A DNA stretch of 41,198 bases. It comes from Bacillota bacterium. GTDB lineage: Bacteria; Bacillota; Limnochordia; Darwinibacteriales; Darwinibacteriaceae. The stretch covers positions 1 to 41,198 of the forward strand of contig JAAYMS010000004.1 in NCBI GenBank assembly GCA_012521295.1, given 5' to 3'. Shown in pieces: positions 5,614 through 15,127 of this stretch. Every line of letters starts with the position of its first letter. The stretch's first letter is position 1. Made by a program: the position numbers and the translations under genes. The notes under the pieces were generated by a model. That model saw only the letters and a program-made list of their open reading frames with translations, was not told the origin of the DNA and did no database searches.

Positions 5614-5642
5614 TTGACTAGAACATATGTTCTGCATATAAT
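5614..5642 (+). promoter_or_regulatory. Sigma-A promoter of the imuB-dnaE2 operon
   Basis: TTGACT (5614-5619) and a perfect TATAAT (5637-5642) are separated by exactly 17 bases, one mismatch from the vegetative consensus. The predicted start site lies near 5649. The first LexA box fills the spacer and the second covers the start site. Such a strong promoter would be expected to be silent only while LexA is bound. Confidence 0.85.
5621..5632 (+). promoter_or_regulatory. LexA (DinR) SOS box 1
   Basis: GAACATATGTTC matches the Gram-positive core GAAC-RNRY-GTTC at every position, and with its flanking bases makes a 14-base perfect palindrome (5620-5633). It occupies the spacer between the -35 and -10 hexamers. 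Confidence 0.88.
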
Positions 5643-5649
5643 GAGAATA

Positions 5650-5661
5650 GAACATTTGTTC
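5650..5661 (+). promoter_or_regulatory. LexA (DinR) SOS box 2
   Basis: GAACATTTGTTC has both GAAC/GTTC half-sites with one deviation in the central RNRY. It overlaps the predicted transcription start. It is centred 29 bases from box 1, just under three helical turns, so two LexA dimers could bind side by side. Confidence 0.83.
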
Positions 5662-5679
5662 GCAAGGGAGAGTTCACGG

Positions 5680-6798
5680 ATGATTGTTTACTGCGGCCTG
5701 CGTAACTTCTACATTCAGCACCTCAAACAAGATGATGCATTTTATATCTTAACACATGCCGGCCAAATCTGGGACTTCTCTCCAGAACTGAAACAGTTAG
5801 GTTTTACAAGGAATACGCCTTTGAACACAGTGCATCATCTCGGTCATCGCGTTGAAATAATAGAAATCGCACTCAATGATTTTTATCGTCACACCGAAAC
5901 ATGGCTGGATTATTCCCGGCAGTATACAACTGACATTGAGGTAGAGTATCCGCATGCCTGGTATGTACGGATTCCCAGCCCCAAAATAGCTCAATATTTC
6001 GGTGAAGATTTAGTCAAATATGCAGCTGAGCGTGGGTTTTCTGTGATTTGGGGTAGTGGGATAAGCAAAATTGTTGCTAAGCTGGCTGCCCATTATACTG
6101 CTCATCCCAATACTGATGTTCTGATCCCACCAGAGAAGACACAAGACTTTATGAAACAGATCCCGGTACAGCACCTGCCCCTGCCTGATTCAGATACCCT
6201 GTTGAAGCTGGGCATCGTCACTTTAGAAGAACTGGCCAAGTTCCCTGTTCAGGATCTAATGGCGCATTTTGGCACCCGGGCGAAAATCCTGAAGCAAATT
6301 GCCCTAGGTGAGGATCCAATCCCTTTTCAGCCCCAGCAGTACTTAGAGATCAGCTGGGAGAGAGATTTTACTACCGAACCAGAACTACTTCAGCCAGCGG
6401 TAGGGCCTATCCTACAGTCCTATCTTGAGCAGGCGGGCGCATATCTAGCGCAAAAGTTAAATACCAACCAAAAGATGGCCGGCAGAATCCTACTCCAATA
6501 TGAGGTAGAAAATCAACCTGCTGCAGAAGTATGGCGCGATCTCAAGAAGCCCACCAACGACGCCAAAACCTTGGTACGCCTTATGAAGATGCTTCTGCCT
6601 GATGATCCAATTATCAATCTGCGAATTACACTGCAGAACCTGCAGCCCATTCCTGTAACCCAATTGGAGTTCTTTCAACCTAAAAAAATCAAGCCTGAGC
6701 TTTCAGAAGACATTTTAAAGAAAATCCCTGCTCAAAAAGGCATATCTATTCCCCGGCGTGAGCTTGTTCTGGAGATGTGGAGGGAGTTGATGCTGTAA
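5680..6798 (+). CDS. imuB: ImuB-like catalytically dead Y-family polymerase
   Basis: Accessory subunit of a translesion mutasome: a Y-family polymerase relative thought to link DnaE2 to the sliding clamp. 372 residues from ATG 5680 (GGGAG at 5666-5670); in-frame upstream ATGs lie inside the promoter. The N-terminus VYCGLRNFY aligns with the Y-family DxDxFY motif but both acidic residues are lost, and no SxDE motif is visible near 80-100, so it should not polymerise. The stretch from GSGISKIVAKLAA to GEDPIPF (about 126-226), with helix-hairpin-helix-like LLKLGIVTLEELAKFP, matches the fingers/thumb of ImuB. QLEFF (328-332) resembles the clamp-binding pentapeptide QLxLF. It is first in an SOS operon with the DUF6504-like gene and dnaE2. 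ImuA is absent. Confidence 0.8.
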   Translation: MIVYCGLRNFYIQHLKQDDAFYILTHAGQIWDFSPELKQLGFTRNTPLNTVHHLGHRVEIIEIALNDFYRHTETWLDYSRQYTTDIEVEYPHAWYVRIPSPKIAQYFGEDLVKYAAERGFSVIWGSGISKIVAKLAAHYTAHPNTDVLIPPEKTQDFMKQIPVQHLPLPDSDTLLKLGIVTLEELAKFPVQDLMAHFGTRAKILKQIALGEDPIPFQPQQYLEISWERDFTTEPELLQPAVGPILQSYLEQAGAYLAQKLNTNQKMAGRILLQYEVENQPAAEVWRDLKKPTNDAKTLVRLMKMLLPDDPIINLRITLQNLQPIPVTQLEFFQPKKIKPELSEDILKKIPAQKGISIPRRELVLEMWRELML

Positions 6799-7032
6799 AT
6801 GAGTAAACTCATCAACAAACCAGTTGAAGTCATGCTGGACAATGGTTTCCCGTGTCGGTTTTTCTTTCAAAAACCGGTTTTTATTCGCTACATTCAGGAG
6901 TATTGGCGTGAGGTTGGCCAGTGGTGGCTGGGGGAACCAGAGCGCGTAGTGTATCAAGTAGTTACTGATTATGGGTTAAACGAACTCCATTACACCCCCC
7001 ATGATGATCGCTGGATCCTCTACCGTCTCTAA
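6799..7032 (+). CDS. Stand-alone DUF6504-like protein
   Basis: Small soluble protein of 77 residues. Its ATG directly abuts the imuB stop (TAAATG), so translation is probably coupled; a GGAGGGAG lies 12 bases upstream inside imuB. Visible pattern: an N-terminal KPVEVMLDNGFP strand, then FIRYIQEYWREVGQWW and ERVVYQVVTDYGLNELHY, ending in a short D-R-W-I-L strand. This is the pattern I associate with DUF6504, a domain that elsewhere is attached to ImuB-type polymerases or encoded next to them. Function is unknown; position between imuB and dnaE2 suggests it is a mutasome subunit, possibly the C-terminal part of ImuB made separately. Confidence 0.72.
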   Translation: MSKLINKPVEVMLDNGFPCRFFFQKPVFIRYIQEYWREVGQWWLGEPERVVYQVVTDYGLNELHYTPHDDRWILYRL

Positions 7033-7054
7033 AATCTTGAAGGAGTGAAGTGGG

Positions 7055-10000
7055 TTGTTCGTTCACCTCCACGTCCATTCACAATATTCCATGCTTGATG
7101 GAGCATCATCGATCACGGCTTATCTAGAAGAAGCAGCGCGCCTAGAAATGCCCGCTTTGGCTCTCACAGATCACAACAATGTAAGTGGCGCGGTAGAATT
7201 CCATAAAACCGCAGCAGAGCTCGGCATCAAACCCATCCAAGGGGTTGAAATCACCTTAGAAGACGACAGCCACCTAACTCTGCTGGCAGAAAATAGCCGG
7301 GGTTATGCAAACATCTGTCAAATCCTCACAAAGGGTTTCGCCCGTCAAGCCCATGGTTCATGCCGCGTTCCTTGGGAGGCGCTGGCAGAGCACCACGAAG
7401 GGATAATCGCACTCAGCGGCTGCCGCCGCTCGCGTATCAGCCAAGCAATTCTCCACCGCAATCCAGAACAGGCTCAAGCTGAGCTGCAGCGCCTGATAGA
7501 AACCTTCGGGCGAGAACAAGTCTATCTCGAAATGATCCAGTCTTATCTGCCGCATACAAAGCTTTTGTTCGAAGGGCTAACCATACTACATGAAAACACC
7601 AAGATTCCACTTGTGGCCACTAATAATGTGCACTACCTAAGCAAAGAAATCTTTCCTGTTCATGATCTACTGGTCTGCACTCGCACACAGACAAGGCTGG
7701 CCGACATCCACCCCGAACGGCCATTCAATGCAGAGAACTATTTCGCCTGCCCAACAGAAATGGCACGGCGCTTTGCTGCCTATCCTCGTGCTCTTGAGGC
7801 TACTTTGGAAATCGCAGATCGCTGCACCCCTGCTCTGGAGCTGGGTACAAATCTTTTCCCAAGATTCCTGCCTGATCACGACCCCCAAGCCGCAAAGGAA
7901 CTTCTCAAACAGCTCACTTGGGAAGGCGCTCACCGACGGTATGGGACAATTACAAAAGAACTAGAAGAGCGTATCAACCATGAGCTGAACATCATCATTA
8001 CCCTCGATGTGGCCGACTATTTTCTTGTAGTATGGGACATTGTGTGCCATGCCCAAAGAAGAGGAATCCGCTATGCAGGGCGAGGTTCAGCGGCAGACTC
8101 GGTTGTGGCATATTGTTTGGGAATAACCAATGTAGATGCTTTTGCACGCGGGCTTCTATTTGAACGTTTTTTAAGTCTAGAAAGGGCTCAAAAACCTGAT
8201 ATTGACATTGATTTTGATGCTCGCTTCCGTGATGAAATTGCCGATTATGTTTACAAGCGCTACGGTGAAAACCACGTCGCTTCTGTGTGCATGTTTCAGA
8301 CTTACCATGCCCGGTCAGCACTGCGAGATTTTGGGCGAGCTTTCGGTTATACGCCTGCGGAGCTGTCACAGCTTACAAAAAACATAACTCACTGTCCTGC
8401 GGATGGTATTCGCGGCCTCCTGCAGCGCCTTCCAGAACTGCGCAGACATCCGTTGAATCACCCTAAATATGCACGCCTGATCGACTACTGCGCAGTAGTG
8501 GCCGGGTTTCCCCGCCATGTTGGTACGCATCTAGGAGGCCTTGTGATCAGTGCCCAGCCGCTCACCATGGTAACACCCCTCCAGCCTTCTGCTAAAGGGG
8601 TGTTGATTACTCAGTTTGATAAAAATACCATCGAGGATCTGGGCTTGATTAAAATTGACCTGCTGTCCCTGCGCACATTATCTGCCGTATCTGATGTAGA
8701 GAAAAAGCTGCATGATCAAGGATTTGCTTATGAACAGATTCCTCATGATGATCCCAAAACTTATGCCCGCCTCCAAAGCGGATCAACAGTAGGTGTCTTT
8801 CAGTTGGAAAGCCCGGCTCAGCGTACTCTTCAGTCCCGCCTTGGCTCAGAAGTTTTCGAAGATATAGTGGCCAGTGTGGCTCTTATACGGCCTGGGCCTA
8901 TCAAGGGCGATATGGTAGAACCATTCATTGCCCGCAGGCGTGGCCTAGAGGAAGTAACTTATATTCACCCGAAACTGCGCAGAATCCTCGAGAAAACCTA
9001 TGGCGTGGTTTTGTATCAAGAACAGGTAATTGAGATCGCCACTGAAATTGCTGGGTTCACACCGGGCGAATCTGATCGGCTGCGCAGAGCGATGACACGA
9101 TTTCGTTCACAAGCAGAAATGGAGAAGATTGGTAAGGAATTCATCGCCAAAGCAGTGGCTAATGGTGTGGAACTTAGTGTTGCTGAGGAAATCTTTTCTT
9201 ACATTGTCGGTTATGCGGGCTATGGCTTCAGCGAAGCTCATGCCGCGGCCTTTGCCGACACAGCCTACCGCACCGCCTATCTTTTGGAACATTATCCTGC
9301 TCAGTTTTACGCTGCCCTCCTCAATCAGCAGCCCATGGGCTTTTATCCACCCAACACACTCTGTGTGCAGGCTCGGCAGCGGGGGATTAAAATACTGCCC
9401 CTTGATATCAATGAGAGCGAGAGCGACTTTACCGCCAACCGAAAAACTATTCGCATAGGGTTAAAACAAGTAAAGGGTATGGAGAACGCATTCTTAGAAT
9501 CAATTATTGCTGAGCGGCGCCAAGCTCCCTTTACCTCTTTAGAAGACTTTATCTATCGCACTACAGTTAGCCGTGATGTAACAGAAAACCTCATCCTAGG
9601 TGGAGCCTTCGATCGATTTTCGAACAACCGCCGCCATCTACTGTGGTGTGTGCCTACCTATTACCAGAACAAGCAAGGCAGCCTTTTCCTCGAGTCACCA
9701 GTGCAGCCATCTGTGCCAGATTTTCCACCCTTAGAACGCTGGATTAGGGAGTATCAGGTTCTTTCACTCTCAGCAGAGCATCATATCATGGAGTTTTTCC
9801 GCTCTAAACTGCCAAAAACAGTCCTTACCAGCCAAGAAGTAACCGGTCGAAAGGAAGGCCGAGTACAGACCGCTGGGTTGGTAATCCGTCCGCATCGGCC
9901 TCCCACCCGCAGCGGAAAAACGGTGGTTTTTCTCACTCTCGAAGATGAGTTTGGGCTGATCGATGTCACTGTCTTTGAAAACATCTATAAACGCTATGCC

Positions 10001-10111
10001 GAGGTATTGTTCAACTATCCACTGTTGAAAATTACCGGTGAAATCTCTGAGCGTGACGAAAACCAAATTACCAGCATAGTAGCTCATAAAATTGCGCCTC
10101 TCATTCTCTAG
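7055..10111 (+). CDS. dnaE2: Error-prone DNA polymerase III alpha subunit DnaE2
   Basis: C-family polymerase for SOS translesion synthesis and induced mutagenesis; 1018 residues, the usual DnaE2 size and shorter than replicative DnaE. The start is TTG 7055 behind AAGGAG; an in-frame stop lies just upstream. Residues 1-200 form a PHP domain (HLHVHS 4-9, LTDHNN). The palm carries PDIDIDFD (381-388), giving catalytic Asp382 and Asp384, with the third Asp535 in KIDLL. The C-terminal OB fold (VQTAGLVIRP to about residue 1010) is of DnaE2 type. QGSLF (874-878) could be a clamp-binding peptide. Its stop overlaps that of convergent ypeB within CTAG (10108-10111). It is expected to depend on ImuB for access to the clamp. 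Confidence 0.93.
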   Translation: MFVHLHVHSQYSMLDGASSITAYLEEAARLEMPALALTDHNNVSGAVEFHKTAAELGIKPIQGVEITLEDDSHLTLLAENSRGYANICQILTKGFARQAHGSCRVPWEALAEHHEGIIALSGCRRSRISQAILHRNPEQAQAELQRLIETFGREQVYLEMIQSYLPHTKLLFEGLTILHENTKIPLVATNNVHYLSKEIFPVHDLLVCTRTQTRLADIHPERPFNAENYFACPTEMARRFAAYPRALEATLEIADRCTPALELGTNLFPRFLPDHDPQAAKELLKQLTWEGAHRRYGTITKELEERINHELNIIITLDVADYFLVVWDIVCHAQRRGIRYAGRGSAADSVVAYCLGITNVDAFARGLLFERFLSLERAQKPDIDIDFDARFRDEIADYVYKRYGENHVASVCMFQTYHARSALRDFGRAFGYTPAELSQLTKNITHCPADGIRGLLQRLPELRRHPLNHPKYARLIDYCAVVAGFPRHVGTHLGGLVISAQPLTMVTPLQPSAKGVLITQFDKNTIEDLGLIKIDLLSLRTLSAVSDVEKKLHDQGFAYEQIPHDDPKTYARLQSGSTVGVFQLESPAQRTLQSRLGSEVFEDIVASVALIRPGPIKGDMVEPFIARRRGLEEVTYIHPKLRRILEKTYGVVLYQEQVIEIATEIAGFTPGESDRLRRAMTRFRSQAEMEKIGKEFIAKAVANGVELSVAEEIFSYIVGYAGYGFSEAHAAAFADTAYRTAYLLEHYPAQFYAALLNQQPMGFYPPNTLCVQARQRGIKILPLDINESESDFTANRKTIRIGLKQVKGMENAFLESIIAERRQAPFTSLEDFIYRTTVSRDVTENLILGGAFDRFSNNRRHLLWCVPTYYQNKQGSLFLESPVQPSVPDFPPLERWIREYQVLSLSAEHHIMEFFRSKLPKTVLTSQEVTGRKEGRVQTAGLVIRPHRPPTRSGKTVVFLTLEDEFGLIDVTVFENIYKRYAEVLFNYPLLKITGEISERDENQITSIVAHKIAPLIL

Positions 10112-11418
10112 AAGAAATCAGGCGAACTGACCGGCACAATTCTCTCTTCCTGTCCTGACTTATCATTGATGTAGACGAGATAATAATCCTCGCCGAGCTT
10201 AACGCCCAAGCGGTGTGTCAAAACCTCTTCATCCAACTCATTCGGAACCAGGGCTAATTTGTGATCTAAGACCACAGCCTGCGGGTTAATGAGCTCTTCG
10301 AGCTTCTTCGGTTCCAACGCAACTTGGGGAGGAGCATTCTCTGTGCCCTGCTCCTCCGCAGCGGCCCGCCCTCTGGCTAAGTAATAAAGAACTCCTTGGA
10401 ACCCTAAGATCTGCCCATCAGACGCACTTACCTGCACTTTGATCGGCTCCGCGTAGCGCAAAAGCCCACCCACTACAGGCACAAAGGTAAACGTGGCCCG
10501 GTTGTGCAGTACTTGGAGATCTGTTACATGGACCTCAGGAAAGCCCCGCTCTGCAAGAAACCGACGAGCGCTATCGGCCATTTGGTTTTCACTAAGATTG
10601 CTCTCACTAACGGTCTGGGAGCTGATCATCCAGAGAACCAAGCCCCCTTGTCGACTTACTTCCAAAGTAATCGTCTCCTGCCCCGCTCCTCGTCCTTCTA
10701 CAGTGAAAGCGGGAATGTCACCTTCCCGCTCATTAACAACCTGAAACTCCCAGCCGTCCCGCCCGCTGAACTCCCTGGCCGTCTGTACCGCTTGTTCCTT
10801 ACTAATTTCATCTCCAGAGATACTGCCCTTCGCTATGCGAGGAAGCCCTACTAGGTTTCCGTCCAGCTCGTCGAGACTGGCATTGATATTGCTGAGAGCA
10901 GTTGTAATTGACTCTGAGAAAGTCAGGGATGTGGTGAAGTAACGGCTCCAAGATACCCAGCTCGACTCCAGCTCCTTCTCAGCCAGTAGGTTCTGCACCT
11001 CACCACTCAATTGGCTGATCTGTTCATAGAAAGCCTGCAGTGCTTCTGAAGAAAGGGAGCCTTGCCCATATGCATAAGACGAACGGTAGCATTCCCACAT
11101 AATCTGCTCGATGCGCCCTAAATCCACTTCTCCCAAGGGCAGCTGTCCCAGGTTGGCTTGAGCGGCTTCGATACTGCTCCGCATATTCGCAGCCATCACC
11201 GCGGTCTGCTCGGGCGCCGATACCAAACGCGCTTTACCCAACTCCTGTGCCAGAGCAGTCAAGTGTACGGCGAACTCTCGCAATGCCCTCCTGTAACCAG
11301 CCTCCATCTGTTGTTGATAGGCTTTCTGCAGGTAGAATTGCCCCAAAGCAAACCCCAGAACAAGCAGGCTCAATGCGAATACTATTCGTGTGAAGCTGCG
11401 GCCGAGCCAGCGTTTCAC
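10108..11418 (-). CDS. ypeB: Germination protein YpeB
   Basis: Spore inner-membrane/cortex protein that SleB requires for stability and localisation; 436 residues from GTG 11418. An in-frame ATG at 11445 lies inside sleB, while GTG has AGGGGTGAT just before it. Residues 7-27 form the N-terminal membrane anchor, followed by a long helical region (about 30-205), then YpeB/PepSY-like repeats starting near KEQAVQTAREF. It begins ten bases after the sleB stop, the conserved sleB-ypeB order of spore formers. Expression late in the forespore would be expected, but I could not identify a sigma-G promoter with confidence. No hairpin follows; the stop overlaps that of dnaE2. Confidence 0.92.
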   Translation of the reverse strand: MKRWLGRSFTRIVFALSLLVLGFALGQFYLQKAYQQQMEAGYRRALREFAVHLTALAQELGKARLVSAPEQTAVMAANMRSSIEAAQANLGQLPLGEVDLGRIEQIMWECYRSSYAYGQGSLSSEALQAFYEQISQLSGEVQNLLAEKELESSWVSWSRYFTTSLTFSESITTALSNINASLDELDGNLVGLPRIAKGSISGDEISKEQAVQTAREFSGRDGWEFQVVNEREGDIPAFTVEGRGAGQETITLEVSRQGGLVLWMISSQTVSESNLSENQMADSARRFLAERGFPEVHVTDLQVLHNRATFTFVPVVGGLLRYAEPIKVQVSASDGQILGFQGVLYYLARGRAAAEEQGTENAPPQVALEPKKLEELINPQAVVLDHKLALVPNELDEEVLTHRLGVKLGEDYYLVYINDKSGQEERIVPVSSPDFF

Positions 11419-11428
11419 CCTATCACCC

Positions 11429-11938
11429 CTAAGTGGAAAAAACATGTTTTCCTATAGTTTTCACAACTGGGCGGCTTCTAATCCAAGCACTGGAAGTCTT
11501 CGCCGGATTGTAGAAATAGATTGCACCCCCAGTGGGATCAAATCCATTGAGGGCGTCGTGGGCTGCCCGGATGGCCTCTTCACTGGCTGGCTGATTAATC
11601 TGCCCGTTAGCCACTACTTGAAAAGCAAGGGGCTCGTACACCACTCCTGAAATAGTATTAGGAAACTCCGGATGAAGAACTCTGTTGATTATCACTGCGG
11701 CAACCGCAACCTGCCCCTCATATGGTTCACCTCTTGCCTCCGCATGAACGACACGAGCCAGGAGGTCTAGTTCTGTTTCGTTGAGAGACAACCGCCAGGA
11801 CTTGGCACTCTTTAGTTCTCCCTTTTCTTCGGCTAACTTCTGCGGTTTCTGGGAAATGCGCCACAAGCTCAAGGCAGCAGCTCCGCAGACAACCAGTACT
11901 AGGACTATTAGGGGAAGATATTTCCGCCAAGCTCCCAT
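11429..11938 (-). CDS. sleB: Spore cortex-lytic enzyme SleB-like (short form)
   Basis: Lytic transglycosylase that cleaves cortex peptidoglycan at muramic-delta-lactam during germination. Only 169 residues: a membrane segment or signal (8-26), a short linker, then the Hydrolase_2 domain from about 52. HAEARGEP (65-72) contains the catalytic Glu67; VAVAAVIINRV and IYFYNPAKT are family hallmarks. The N-terminal peptidoglycan-binding domain found in B. subtilis SleB (about 300 residues) is missing, so it is CwlJ-sized, but ypeB next to it identifies it as the SleB partner. Start ATG 11938 follows AAGGGTGG. It diverges from the RND gene. Confidence 0.9.
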   Translation of the reverse strand: MGAWRKYLPLIVLVLVVCGAAALSLWRISQKPQKLAEEKGELKSAKSWRLSLNETELDLLARVVHAEARGEPYEGQVAVAAVIINRVLHPEFPNTISGVVYEPLAFQVVANGQINQPASEEAIRAAHDALNGFDPTGGAIYFYNPAKTSSAWIRSRPVVKTIGKHVFST

Positions 11939-12031: not shown

Positions 12032-15000
12032 ATGAATCTATCGAGCATCGCCATCAGACGGCCTGTAGCCGTCACTGTAGTCGTTATCATCGCACTGATT
12101 TTCGGTGTAGTTTCACTTCAGCGAATTGGGATTGACCTGCTGCCCAACATGAGCCTACCGTATGCGGTAGTTGTGACTACATATCCGGGGGCATCCACAG
12201 ACGTTATCGAGCAGGATATAACCATTCCCCTCGAAGCCTCCCTGGCGGGAGTCAGCGGAGTCAGGCGGCAGGATTCATACAGCATGGAGAATATCTCTGC
12301 CATCATGCTCCAGTTTGACTGGGGTACCGACATGCTGACTGCTCTGGATAATATTCGGAACAACCTTGCACAAGCGGCCATGAGTCTGCCGTCAGAAGCT
12401 TCGAGCCCCGTTGTTGCCCGTATAGACCCTAACGACCTCCCTCTCATGATGATTGCGGTCAGTGCCGAAGGTGTCAGCGATCTAGAGCTTTCCAATGAAC
12501 TGGCTCGCCTAAAGCCCGAGCTGGAACAACTGCAGGGTGTAGCTTCAGTCAGTCTGTTAGGAACCACTTCTGAAGAGATCCGAGTCCTATATGATGCGGA
12601 ACTCCTGCATGAGCAGGGTTTGTCGCCAGCGATTCTACAGCAGCTGATCACCTACCAGAACATTGTTGTACCCAGCGGTGTTGTCACAGAAGGAGATATG
12701 CGGTACTCCACCCGTACCGGGCGGCGCATCAATGGGCTGGATGAGTTGAAAGACCTGATTATCGGCTTTAAGCAGGCTGAAGGCATGTTTGGGCTGGCAG
12801 GACTCATGCCCTCACTAACATACCTGTCGGACATAGCCGACATCCATATTGCAGAGACAAAGCCCGAGGGAGTTACCCGCTTCAACGGCGAAGATACGAT
12901 CATTATTAAGGTGATGCGTCAGAGCGGCGCTAATACGGTGCGTGTGGCAAACGCAGTCAAGGCAACTCTCCAGAAGATTGAACAAGCCAATCCGCACCTC
13001 AATTTCACAGTGGTGAGTGACCAATCAGCCTTTATTACAAGCTCGATCTCGAACCTCATGTCCAGTATCATACTGGGAGGTATCCTCGCTGTCGCAGTGT
13101 TGTGGTTCTTCCTGCGCCACTTAGGAAGCATGGCGGTAATCGGCTTGTCGATTCCCATTTCAATTATTGCCAGCTTCGTCTTGGTTTATTTGTCTGACCT
13201 ATCCCTCAATCTGATGACACTAGGGGGGCTCGCTCTAGGAGTAGGTATGCTGGTAGACTCATCAATTGTTGTCTTGGAGAACATCTTTAGGTACCGTTCA
13301 CTGGGACTAAGTACTCTAGAGGCAGCCGAAAAAGGAAGCTCCGAAGTGGCTGCCGCTATCTTCGCCTCTACAGCTACCACCGTTGCCGTATTCCTGCCTG
13401 TTATTTTCTTGGACAGCTTAGCAGGGCAATTCTTGAAAGAGCTGGGCCTGACAGTCACGTATTCTCTGGTAGCGTCATTGGCTGTAGCTATTACCCTGGT
13501 CCCAATGCTGGCCTCTCGGTTCTTACGGAAAACGCCAACTGCGGCTGGGAGAACACAAGCACAATCTAGAATGCAGAAGTACTACGTGCGCATGCTTGAG
13601 TTCTGCATGTCCCATCGAGCTGTGATACTGGCCGCAGTCGGAGCAGCAATTGTTTTGGCCCTGCTGATCTTCCCGCAGATCGGCGAAGAGTTTCTGCCCA
13701 GCTTTGACGAGGGATTCCTCAGCCTAACCGTCACATTACCCGGCGGAAACACGATTGATAAAGTCAAAGAAGCGGTTAAAGACCTTGAAGAGAAAATCAT
13801 GGCCATTCCAGGTGTTGCTGGTGTTGCTAGTCAAGCCGGAGATCAAGGCGACAATGACATCCTCAGTTTGGTTACGGGAACATCTAACAACACGGTCACC
13901 ATGTCTGTACCTCTCGAACCGCTTGAAACGCGTAAGAGGTCCAGTGCAGAGATTGCCGATGATGTACGGAGAGTACTCCAAGACGCAGGTGTCATCAGGT
14001 CAATTGTCGTTGACTCCTCGCTCTTTGGTACATCAGCTTCGAGCATCCTCTCGCCTCGGCTTGTGATTGAGCTGCGGGGTGAAGACCGAGCTGTGTTGAG
14101 CCAGATTGGAGATCAAATTAAAGCCGAACTGCACAAGATTCCTGGCCTATTTGAGATCGACGACAGCTGGAGTCAAGCCAGTACCGGGATTTACCTGGAA
14201 GTTGACACCGCTCGGAGTGTCTTAGGCGGATTCACTGCTGGTCAAGTAGGGTTGGGTGTCCACTACGCTACCTCCGGGCTTAAGGCGACAGATATTATCG
14301 TTGATGGGCGGACACTGCCCGTTATGCTCAGGCCTCAGCAGACCTTCGAATCCATAGAAGACCTGCTGGACGCAAAGGTTTCATCGCCTGTCTCTTTGGC
14401 CGGCTTTGGTGAACATCCAATAATCCTAGGAGAAGTAGTGGATGCGAAAATTGAAGATATTCCACCCACTGTCCAGCGTACAGATCGCCTGTATACATTG
14501 AACGTAAGTGCAAACATTGGCGAGCACGACTTGTCCTGGGCAAAAGCCCACGCTCAGCGGATTATGGATAATCTTGATCTGCCCCCTGGATACCATGCAC
14601 GCCTAAGTGGTATGCAGCAGATGATTGACGAGTCAATGGGCGAGCTGTACTTCGCAGTGGGTCTTGCCATCGTGCTGGTGTTCTTGGTCATGGCTGCTCA
14701 GTTCGAATCTTTTGTCCAGCCACTTATTGTCATTGTGGCTATTCCACTAGGGCTGCTTGGTGCTATCATTGCACTCTGGGTGACAGGCAATAACCTGGGT
14801 ATCATCTCCATGATCGGGATGATCGCTCTGGTTGGAATTGTCGTCAATAACGCCATCGTACTGGTTGACTTCATCAACCAGAGAAGGCGCGAGGGTGAAC
14901 GAGTTGCTGAGGCTATTAAAGATGCCTGTGTGGTACGTCTGCGCCCGATTCTGATGACTACTATCACCACGATCCTGGGCTTGGTACCTCTTGCCTTTGG

Positions 15001-15127
15001 CTGGGGCGAAGGTGCTGAGTTCCAGCGCTCGCTGGCTGTCACAGTAATCGGCGGACTGACCAGTTCAACCATTCTCACTCTGTTTGTTATCCCAGTTGTC
15101 TATTCGTTAGTCCAGCGAGATAAATAA
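12032..15127 (+). CDS. RND efflux permease (HAE1/SwrC-like)
   Basis: Inner-membrane proton-driven drug, lipid or surfactant exporter; 1031 residues with the duplicated RND plan. First TM at about 10-30, two large extracytoplasmic loops (about 40-335 and 555-860), two six-helix blocks ending near 500 and 1028. In TM4, LVDSSIVVLENI holds one acid (Asp409) where AcrB has an Asp pair; the second is Ser410. TM10/11 contain VGIVVNNAIVLVDFIN. ATG 12032 has AGGAGG nine bases upstream. No membrane-fusion adaptor or outer-membrane channel is adjacent, as for SwrC of B. subtilis, which works in a single-membrane cell. It is probably monocistronic. Substrate unknown. Confidence 0.92.
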   Translation: MNLSSIAIRRPVAVTVVVIIALIFGVVSLQRIGIDLLPNMSLPYAVVVTTYPGASTDVIEQDITIPLEASLAGVSGVRRQDSYSMENISAIMLQFDWGTDMLTALDNIRNNLAQAAMSLPSEASSPVVARIDPNDLPLMMIAVSAEGVSDLELSNELARLKPELEQLQGVASVSLLGTTSEEIRVLYDAELLHEQGLSPAILQQLITYQNIVVPSGVVTEGDMRYSTRTGRRINGLDELKDLIIGFKQAEGMFGLAGLMPSLTYLSDIADIHIAETKPEGVTRFNGEDTIIIKVMRQSGANTVRVANAVKATLQKIEQANPHLNFTVVSDQSAFITSSISNLMSSIILGGILAVAVLWFFLRHLGSMAVIGLSIPISIIASFVLVYLSDLSLNLMTLGGLALGVGMLVDSSIVVLENIFRYRSLGLSTLEAAEKGSSEVAAAIFASTATTVAVFLPVIFLDSLAGQFLKELGLTVTYSLVASLAVAITLVPMLASRFLRKTPTAAGRTQAQSRMQKYYVRMLEFCMSHRAVILAAVGAAIVLALLIFPQIGEEFLPSFDEGFLSLTVTLPGGNTIDKVKEAVKDLEEKIMAIPGVAGVASQAGDQGDNDILSLVTGTSNNTVTMSVPLEPLETRKRSSAEIADDVRRVLQDAGVIRSIVVDSSLFGTSASSILSPRLVIELRGEDRAVLSQIGDQIKAELHKIPGLFEIDDSWSQASTGIYLEVDTARSVLGGFTAGQVGLGVHYATSGLKATDIIVDGRTLPVMLRPQQTFESIEDLLDAKVSSPVSLAGFGEHPIILGEVVDAKIEDIPPTVQRTDRLYTLNVSANIGEHDLSWAKAHAQRIMDNLDLPPGYHARLSGMQQMIDESMGELYFAVGLAIVLVFLVMAAQFESFVQPLIVIVAIPLGLLGAIIALWVTGNNLGIISMIGMIALVGIVVNNAIVLVDFINQRRREGERVAEAIKDACVVRLRPILMTTITTILGLVPLAFGWGEGAEFQRSLAVTVIGGLTSSTILTLFVIPVVYSLVQRDK

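Follow-up and report, generated by a model that had tools for sequence, protein, structure and literature searches.

The locus examined here raises the question of what an ImuB-like protein, a very small protein, and a DnaE2-type polymerase do together in a Bacillota genome without ImuA, and whether such a set still docks onto RecA. The window, i.e. the whole stretch of DNA that was analyzed, is the 41,198-nt contig JAAYMS010000004.1 (assembly GCA_012521295.1), assigned to the family Darwinibacteriaceae, order Darwinibacteriales, phylum Bacillota. It carries three codirectional genes on the + strand at positions 5680-6798, 6799-7032, and 7055-10111, where a first-pass annotation had located an ImuB-like gene, a gene for a 77-residue protein, and dnaE2 behind a LexA-type operator. 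All of these elements were present, and, as also reported, no RecA-like gene adjoins the three genes. The first encodes a catalytically dead Y-family (ImuB-like) protein of 372 aa, termed iPolY (sequence, profiles, and AlphaFold model); the second a stand-alone ImuB-C domain (DUF6504-like) of 77 aa (profiles, hhalign, and all-beta model); and the third a DnaE2-type C-family polymerase of 1018 aa with a TTG start (domains, catalytic motifs, and tree). The first two genes meet at TAAATG, with the small gene in frame directly after the iPolY TAA stop, and dnaE2 starts 22 bases past the end of the small gene. The stop codon between the two in-frame genes was also considered as a possible readthrough signal; this reading was rejected because the two genes of other genera overlap in a different frame. 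Elsewhere in the window, a YpeB-like gene lies beside a SleB-like (cell wall hydrolase) gene on the - strand (10108-11938). This gene pairing is typical of spore germination, and these neighbors suggest a spore-forming lineage. An AcrB-type RND transporter gene (12032-15127, + strand, 757 bits) is also found in this stretch of the Bacillota genome.

Taken alone, iPolY matched the Pfam family PF00817 with 14.5 bits, which is under the curated cut-off. Because the Pfam scores of both iPolY and the small protein are under these cut-offs, the two proteins are identified through their relatives and through profiles. iPolY was matched by several DNA polymerase IV models with E values of about 1e-12. 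The proposed Y-family identity of the first gene was supported by a search of the PDB with the iPolY family profile, where 57 of 57 matching sequences belonged to the Y family, and by a structure search with the AlphaFold model (pLDDT 85.6, pTM 0.68), where Y-family structures came first (E 1.5e-20) with moderate TM-scores of about 0.5. In an alignment with active DinBs, the catalytic D, D, and E positions of iPolY read G, H, and A, and the palm is shortened. The triad is missing in the other cassette iPolYs as well, and across the Bacillota iPolY set it is missing in all members except one (L214). A beta-clamp binding motif, QLEFF, was identified by alignment at residues 328-332 (6661-6675, + strand), where the family form is QLxxF. 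The C terminus is formed by a conserved tail starting with RRELVLEMWREL (residues 359-372; 6754-6795, + strand), in which R359, R360, E361, and W367 are invariant in alignment A1. Comparison across Bacillota showed this RRE tail in most iPolYs. Between the clamp motif and the tail lies the place of the RecA-NT motif of related iPolYs (about residues 336-358; 6685-6753, + strand). Past RecA-NT, many Bacillota iPolYs (loci L155-L213) have a conserved tail of roughly RRExxLxFxDPxR, where ImuB-C or DnaE2 may dock. At three loci (L197, L210, and L211) the iPolY open reading frame measures 175-187 aa and keeps the clamp motif, RecA-NT, and the tail, with little other polymerase fold. A Pfam search showed that the genome of the window also encodes a canonical DinB (C89, L325). 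A second Y-family protein of roughly 500-570 aa (E about 1e-25) occurs in several genomes of the order (G322:C24, G318:C3, and others) and was not found in the genome of the window.

The small protein had been described as DUF6504-like, and this held, as PF20114 was matched by 15 of 15 members of its alignment (best 2e-11). It has invariant residues across relatives. An hhalign comparison with the C-terminal part of canonical ImuBs, taken from imuB-dnaE2 operons on plasmids, gave a probability of 82% (E 1e-5); 50 column-shuffled controls gave 3% or less, and the ImuB N terminus gave 0.04%. The structural model is all-beta (pLDDT 91.8) and had no match in the PDB at E≤0.001. ImuB-C is likewise without a PDB structure match (PMC12926913). 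Judged from these profile comparisons, the small protein is the C-terminal domain of ImuB encoded as a protein of its own, so that iPolY and the small protein jointly make up a split ImuB. The idea of the small protein as a possible substitute for ImuA draws on the lack of ImuA and on the position of the small gene within the operon. However, the homology to ImuB-C, the all-beta model with no RecA-like fold, and the presence of the same domain fused within canonical ImuB make a replacement of ImuA very improbable. Because of this homology, it is a part of ImuB that the small protein supplies.

The absence of ImuA, previously noted for the immediate neighborhood, was checked at the genome level. 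In the genome of the window (94.8% complete), the RecA-family search returned recA with 475 bits and a next match of 12 bits, and ImuA was not detected by this search, by an ImuA model, or by an ImuA profile. The model, NF033429, is a weak test that responds to RecA in most control genomes and passed its cut-off in none, Caulobacter included; a six-sequence ImuA profile was therefore used in addition. Applied to 37 genomes of the order, the profile gave as best matches recA and an ATPase-sized frame of ~460 aa, presumably RadA, and nothing further. In the window's genome as across the order, only recA and weaker matches were thus found.

A set of iPolY, ImuB-C, and DnaE2 without ImuA was described in Kyrpidia tusciae in 2019 by Timinskas and Venclovas, and RecA was proposed to take the place of ImuA there by binding the RecA-NT motif of the Y-family protein (PMC6511836). 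A 2026 survey by the same authors uses the name DnaE2X-iPolY-ImuBC-RecA; no other DnaE2 complex was found there to occur with all three replication systems (PMC12926913). Because the same set has been published, the architecture picked out in the first pass is a described one. It is not an oddity of one lineage.

The third protein contains PHP, NTPase, finger, HhH, and OB domains and retains the catalytic PDIDIDF motif and the KIDLL aspartate. Since the genome also encodes PolC (1532 bits, cut-off 873) and another DnaE, the cassette DnaE is accessory. In a FastTree phylogeny of 81 rows, the Bacillota cassette DnaEs formed one supported clade of 66 rows, apart from the canonical DnaE2 of ImuA-ImuB operons and from the other DnaE of the genome. 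Three loci with ImuB-C and no nearby Y-family gene had a DnaE outside the cassette clade. The retained motifs and the supported clade bear out the assignment as a DnaE2-type polymerase. The clade appears to be DnaE2X-like, a name given on the basis of its association and its separation from DnaE2A. Among the plasmid matches listed, the best match to the DnaE2 of the window (39%) is encoded on a Thermomicrobium roseum plasmid (L268), in a cassette of a recA-like gene (annotated as recombinase A), an ImuB-like gene, and dnaE2.

Upstream of the iPolY gene, the single LexA-type operator of the first-pass annotation proved to be two palindromic boxes; the motif is there, but as a pair. Box 1, GAACATATGTTC (5621-5632), and box 2, GAACATTTGTTC (5650-5661), lie 59 and 30 bases ahead of the gene, with box 2 placed 29 bases downstream of box 1. 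A single LexA-type box is not enriched genome-wide, where 38 sites compared with 46 for the reversed pattern correspond to chance level, and the evidence for an operator is for this reason taken from position and conservation and not from the motif alone. Two boxes were present in 20 of the 21 loci of the window's family that have upstream sequence, spaced by 29 bases in 16 loci, by 28 in 3, and by 32 in 1. Conserved in this way, the box pair at the cassette is not a chance occurrence. Nearly every lexA locus of the order also has two or three copies of the motif upstream of the gene. In the window's genome the motif is present in the lexA promoter and stands 25 bases before recA. In the phylum sample, a box was found near 36 of 52 iPolY starts, compared with 3% of random windows from the same loci. 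At the level of the motif, i.e. two boxes, their conservation as a pair, and the lexA promoter, LexA control of the cassette is supported. A further box, GAACATATGTTT on C171, was rejected as a real operator and considered a chance match because it is located inside a gene.

Within the order, 35 of 37 genomes, covering all 18 genera, carry the iPolY gene. It is adjoined by the small gene and dnaE2 wherever the contig is long enough, with the exception of three loci in which the small gene was uncalled by the first scan. In the phylum, the small-protein profile matched in 112 of 399 sampled genomes, and all three genes occurred together in 49 of 60 fetched loci; the named relatives are MAGs of Bacillota, Clostridia, and Limnochordia. 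These counts do not support the earlier view of an exceptional mutasome in Bacillota. They suggest that split-ImuB systems are widespread among uncultured Bacillota, to a greater extent than the published "small but taxonomically diverse" group would imply. The term "reduced" is doubtful as well, because the architecture has been read as a possible ancestor of ImuA-ImuB-DnaE2 (PMC12926913).

RecA-NT, the proposed link to RecA, would lie in the stretch of iPolY that separates the clamp motif from the RRE tail. A RecA-NT profile was built from this stretch of 45 Bacillota iPolYs outside the order. For held-out relatives the median score was 20.3 bits, and two of the 45 fell below 2 bits; six loci with tails of no clear register had been excluded beforehand, so that the median applies to typical-looking tails. 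The profile also found genuine RecA N termini in the right register (2.9 to 12.4 bits). For the iPolY of the window, two scans gave -1.9 and -2.9 bits. The medians of its family (-1.4, n = 22) and of the sister family (-1.0, n = 8) were at the level of shuffled tails, for which the 95th percentile is 1.5. A scan of 75-residue tails detected no significant RecA-NT at the place of the motif in either family (22 and 8 members). Two members of the window's family scored off this place: L077 with 3.8 bits upstream in the little-finger region, and L068 with 5.1 bits in a 90-residue scan and 0.0 in the 75-residue scan. Elsewhere in the order, families scored 5.6 to 11.4 bits, apart from one single-genome family (0.1), and class- and phylum-level relatives scored alongside reached 17.6 to 22.9 bits. 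Scored against the same RecA-NT profile, the DinBs from ten genomes in the order, the window's included, reached 5.4 to 14.0 bits. Since these DinBs keep the motif, a lineage-wide shift in composition is not the cause of the loss. On the DnaE tree, at least five changes are needed to account for presence and absence of RecA-NT; given a quickly built tree and an arbitrary threshold, this count is rough. Despite the undetectable RecA-NT, iPolY still has a conserved clamp motif and a conserved RRE tail.

The low scores denote the absence of a short motif, and a diverged sequence could still form a helix and bind RecA. The complex could then be an ordinary DnaE2X-iPolY-ImuBC-RecA complex, with RecA still bound to iPolY by a diverged RecA-NT helix at residues 336-358. 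Gene set and clade are the same as in relatives with RecA-NT, the window's family has a conserved AQxG-strand-RRE region, and some members of the sister family retain a short helix, a partial match ending in LG (e.g. LESLKAQLGAGLIQ). On the other hand, the tail of the window and those of 22 of 22 family members are at shuffle level at the place of the motif, the DinBs keep the motif by the same model, and the helix predicted at this place in the window's iPolY is only 6 residues long and of low confidence. We regard a diverged helix as quite possible, though it is not the reading we favor. As no recognizable RecA-NT is present in the iPolY of this lineage, direct RecA docking via the motif has probably been lost or replaced. 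In a more far-reaching version, which we consider less likely than not, the DnaE2 mutasome works without direct docking of RecA or ImuA: the clamp and ImuB-C would suffice for its recruitment, and LexA would be its sole link to damage.

The losses in iPolY could also be taken as signs that the operon is a degenerate remnant, decaying and no longer encoding a working mutasome: the palm is shortened, the catalytic residues are gone, and RecA-NT is lost. This is scarcely credible, however, for an operon that occurs, with its reading frames intact, in each of the order's 18 genera, has invariant residues in both iPolY and the small protein, a conserved double operator, and a DnaE2 with its catalytic residues kept. 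Our preferred reading, to which we assign a probability of roughly 85%, is a split-ImuB mutasome (iPolY, ImuB-C, and DnaE2) for error-prone translesion synthesis, induced as part of the SOS response, in which RecA-NT docking has probably been lost or replaced. The sequence itself shows the gene set, the dead active site, the clamp motif, the ImuB-C homology, the active-site residues of DnaE2, the LexA boxes, and the lack of ImuA, whereas assembly of the complex, its loading via the clamp, mutagenesis, and induction by damage are projected from the mycobacterial and caulobacter systems. LexA bound to the two operators would keep the operon off. DNA damage would activate RecA, leading to cleavage of LexA and expression of the operon. 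The dead iPolY would dock onto the sliding clamp via QLEFF, and the small ImuB-C barrel would bridge it to DnaE2, as ImuB-C has been modeled to do in Mycobacterium (PMC12926913). Loaded by the split ImuB via the clamp, DnaE2 would then copy DNA past lesions. In mycobacteria, an ImuB with a truncated or mutated RecA-NT no longer binds ImuA', and mutasome function is lost (PMC11791113). The loss of RecA-NT looks like the new part of the locus, apparently an adaptor without a short motif thought to be needed in related systems, and makes it a variant of a known architecture that is worth a test. A whole operon under SOS control minus RecA-NT would be a natural test of whether RecA or ImuA docking is essential to DnaE2 mutagenesis.

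Compared with known systems, the locus is similar to Pol V (UmuD'2C-RecA) and YqjW-YqjX-RecA in pairing a Y-family protein with a small partner under SOS control. The Y-family protein is an active polymerase there, unlike iPolY, and the small partners are SH3-type barrels, unlike ImuB-C (PMC12926913). With the ImuA-ImuB-DnaE2 systems of Mycobacterium, Caulobacter, and Pseudomonas, it shares LexA control (here by motif), a dead Y-family protein with a clamp motif, DnaE2, and ImuB-C. Those systems have imuA and a fused ImuB-C, whereas the window has no ImuA and an ImuB split over two genes, and their DnaE2 falls in another clade. From DnaE2X-iPolY-ImuBC-RecA the locus differs in that the published iPolYs carry RecA-NT, which is undetectable in the window's family and its sister family, and in the paired LexA operators of fixed spacing in the window's family, which the portions of the published descriptions covered here do not mention for this type. 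Both combine a dead Y-family protein, a stand-alone ImuB-C, and a DnaE2 clade separate from the ImuA-associated DnaE2A with PolC-type replication and no ImuA.
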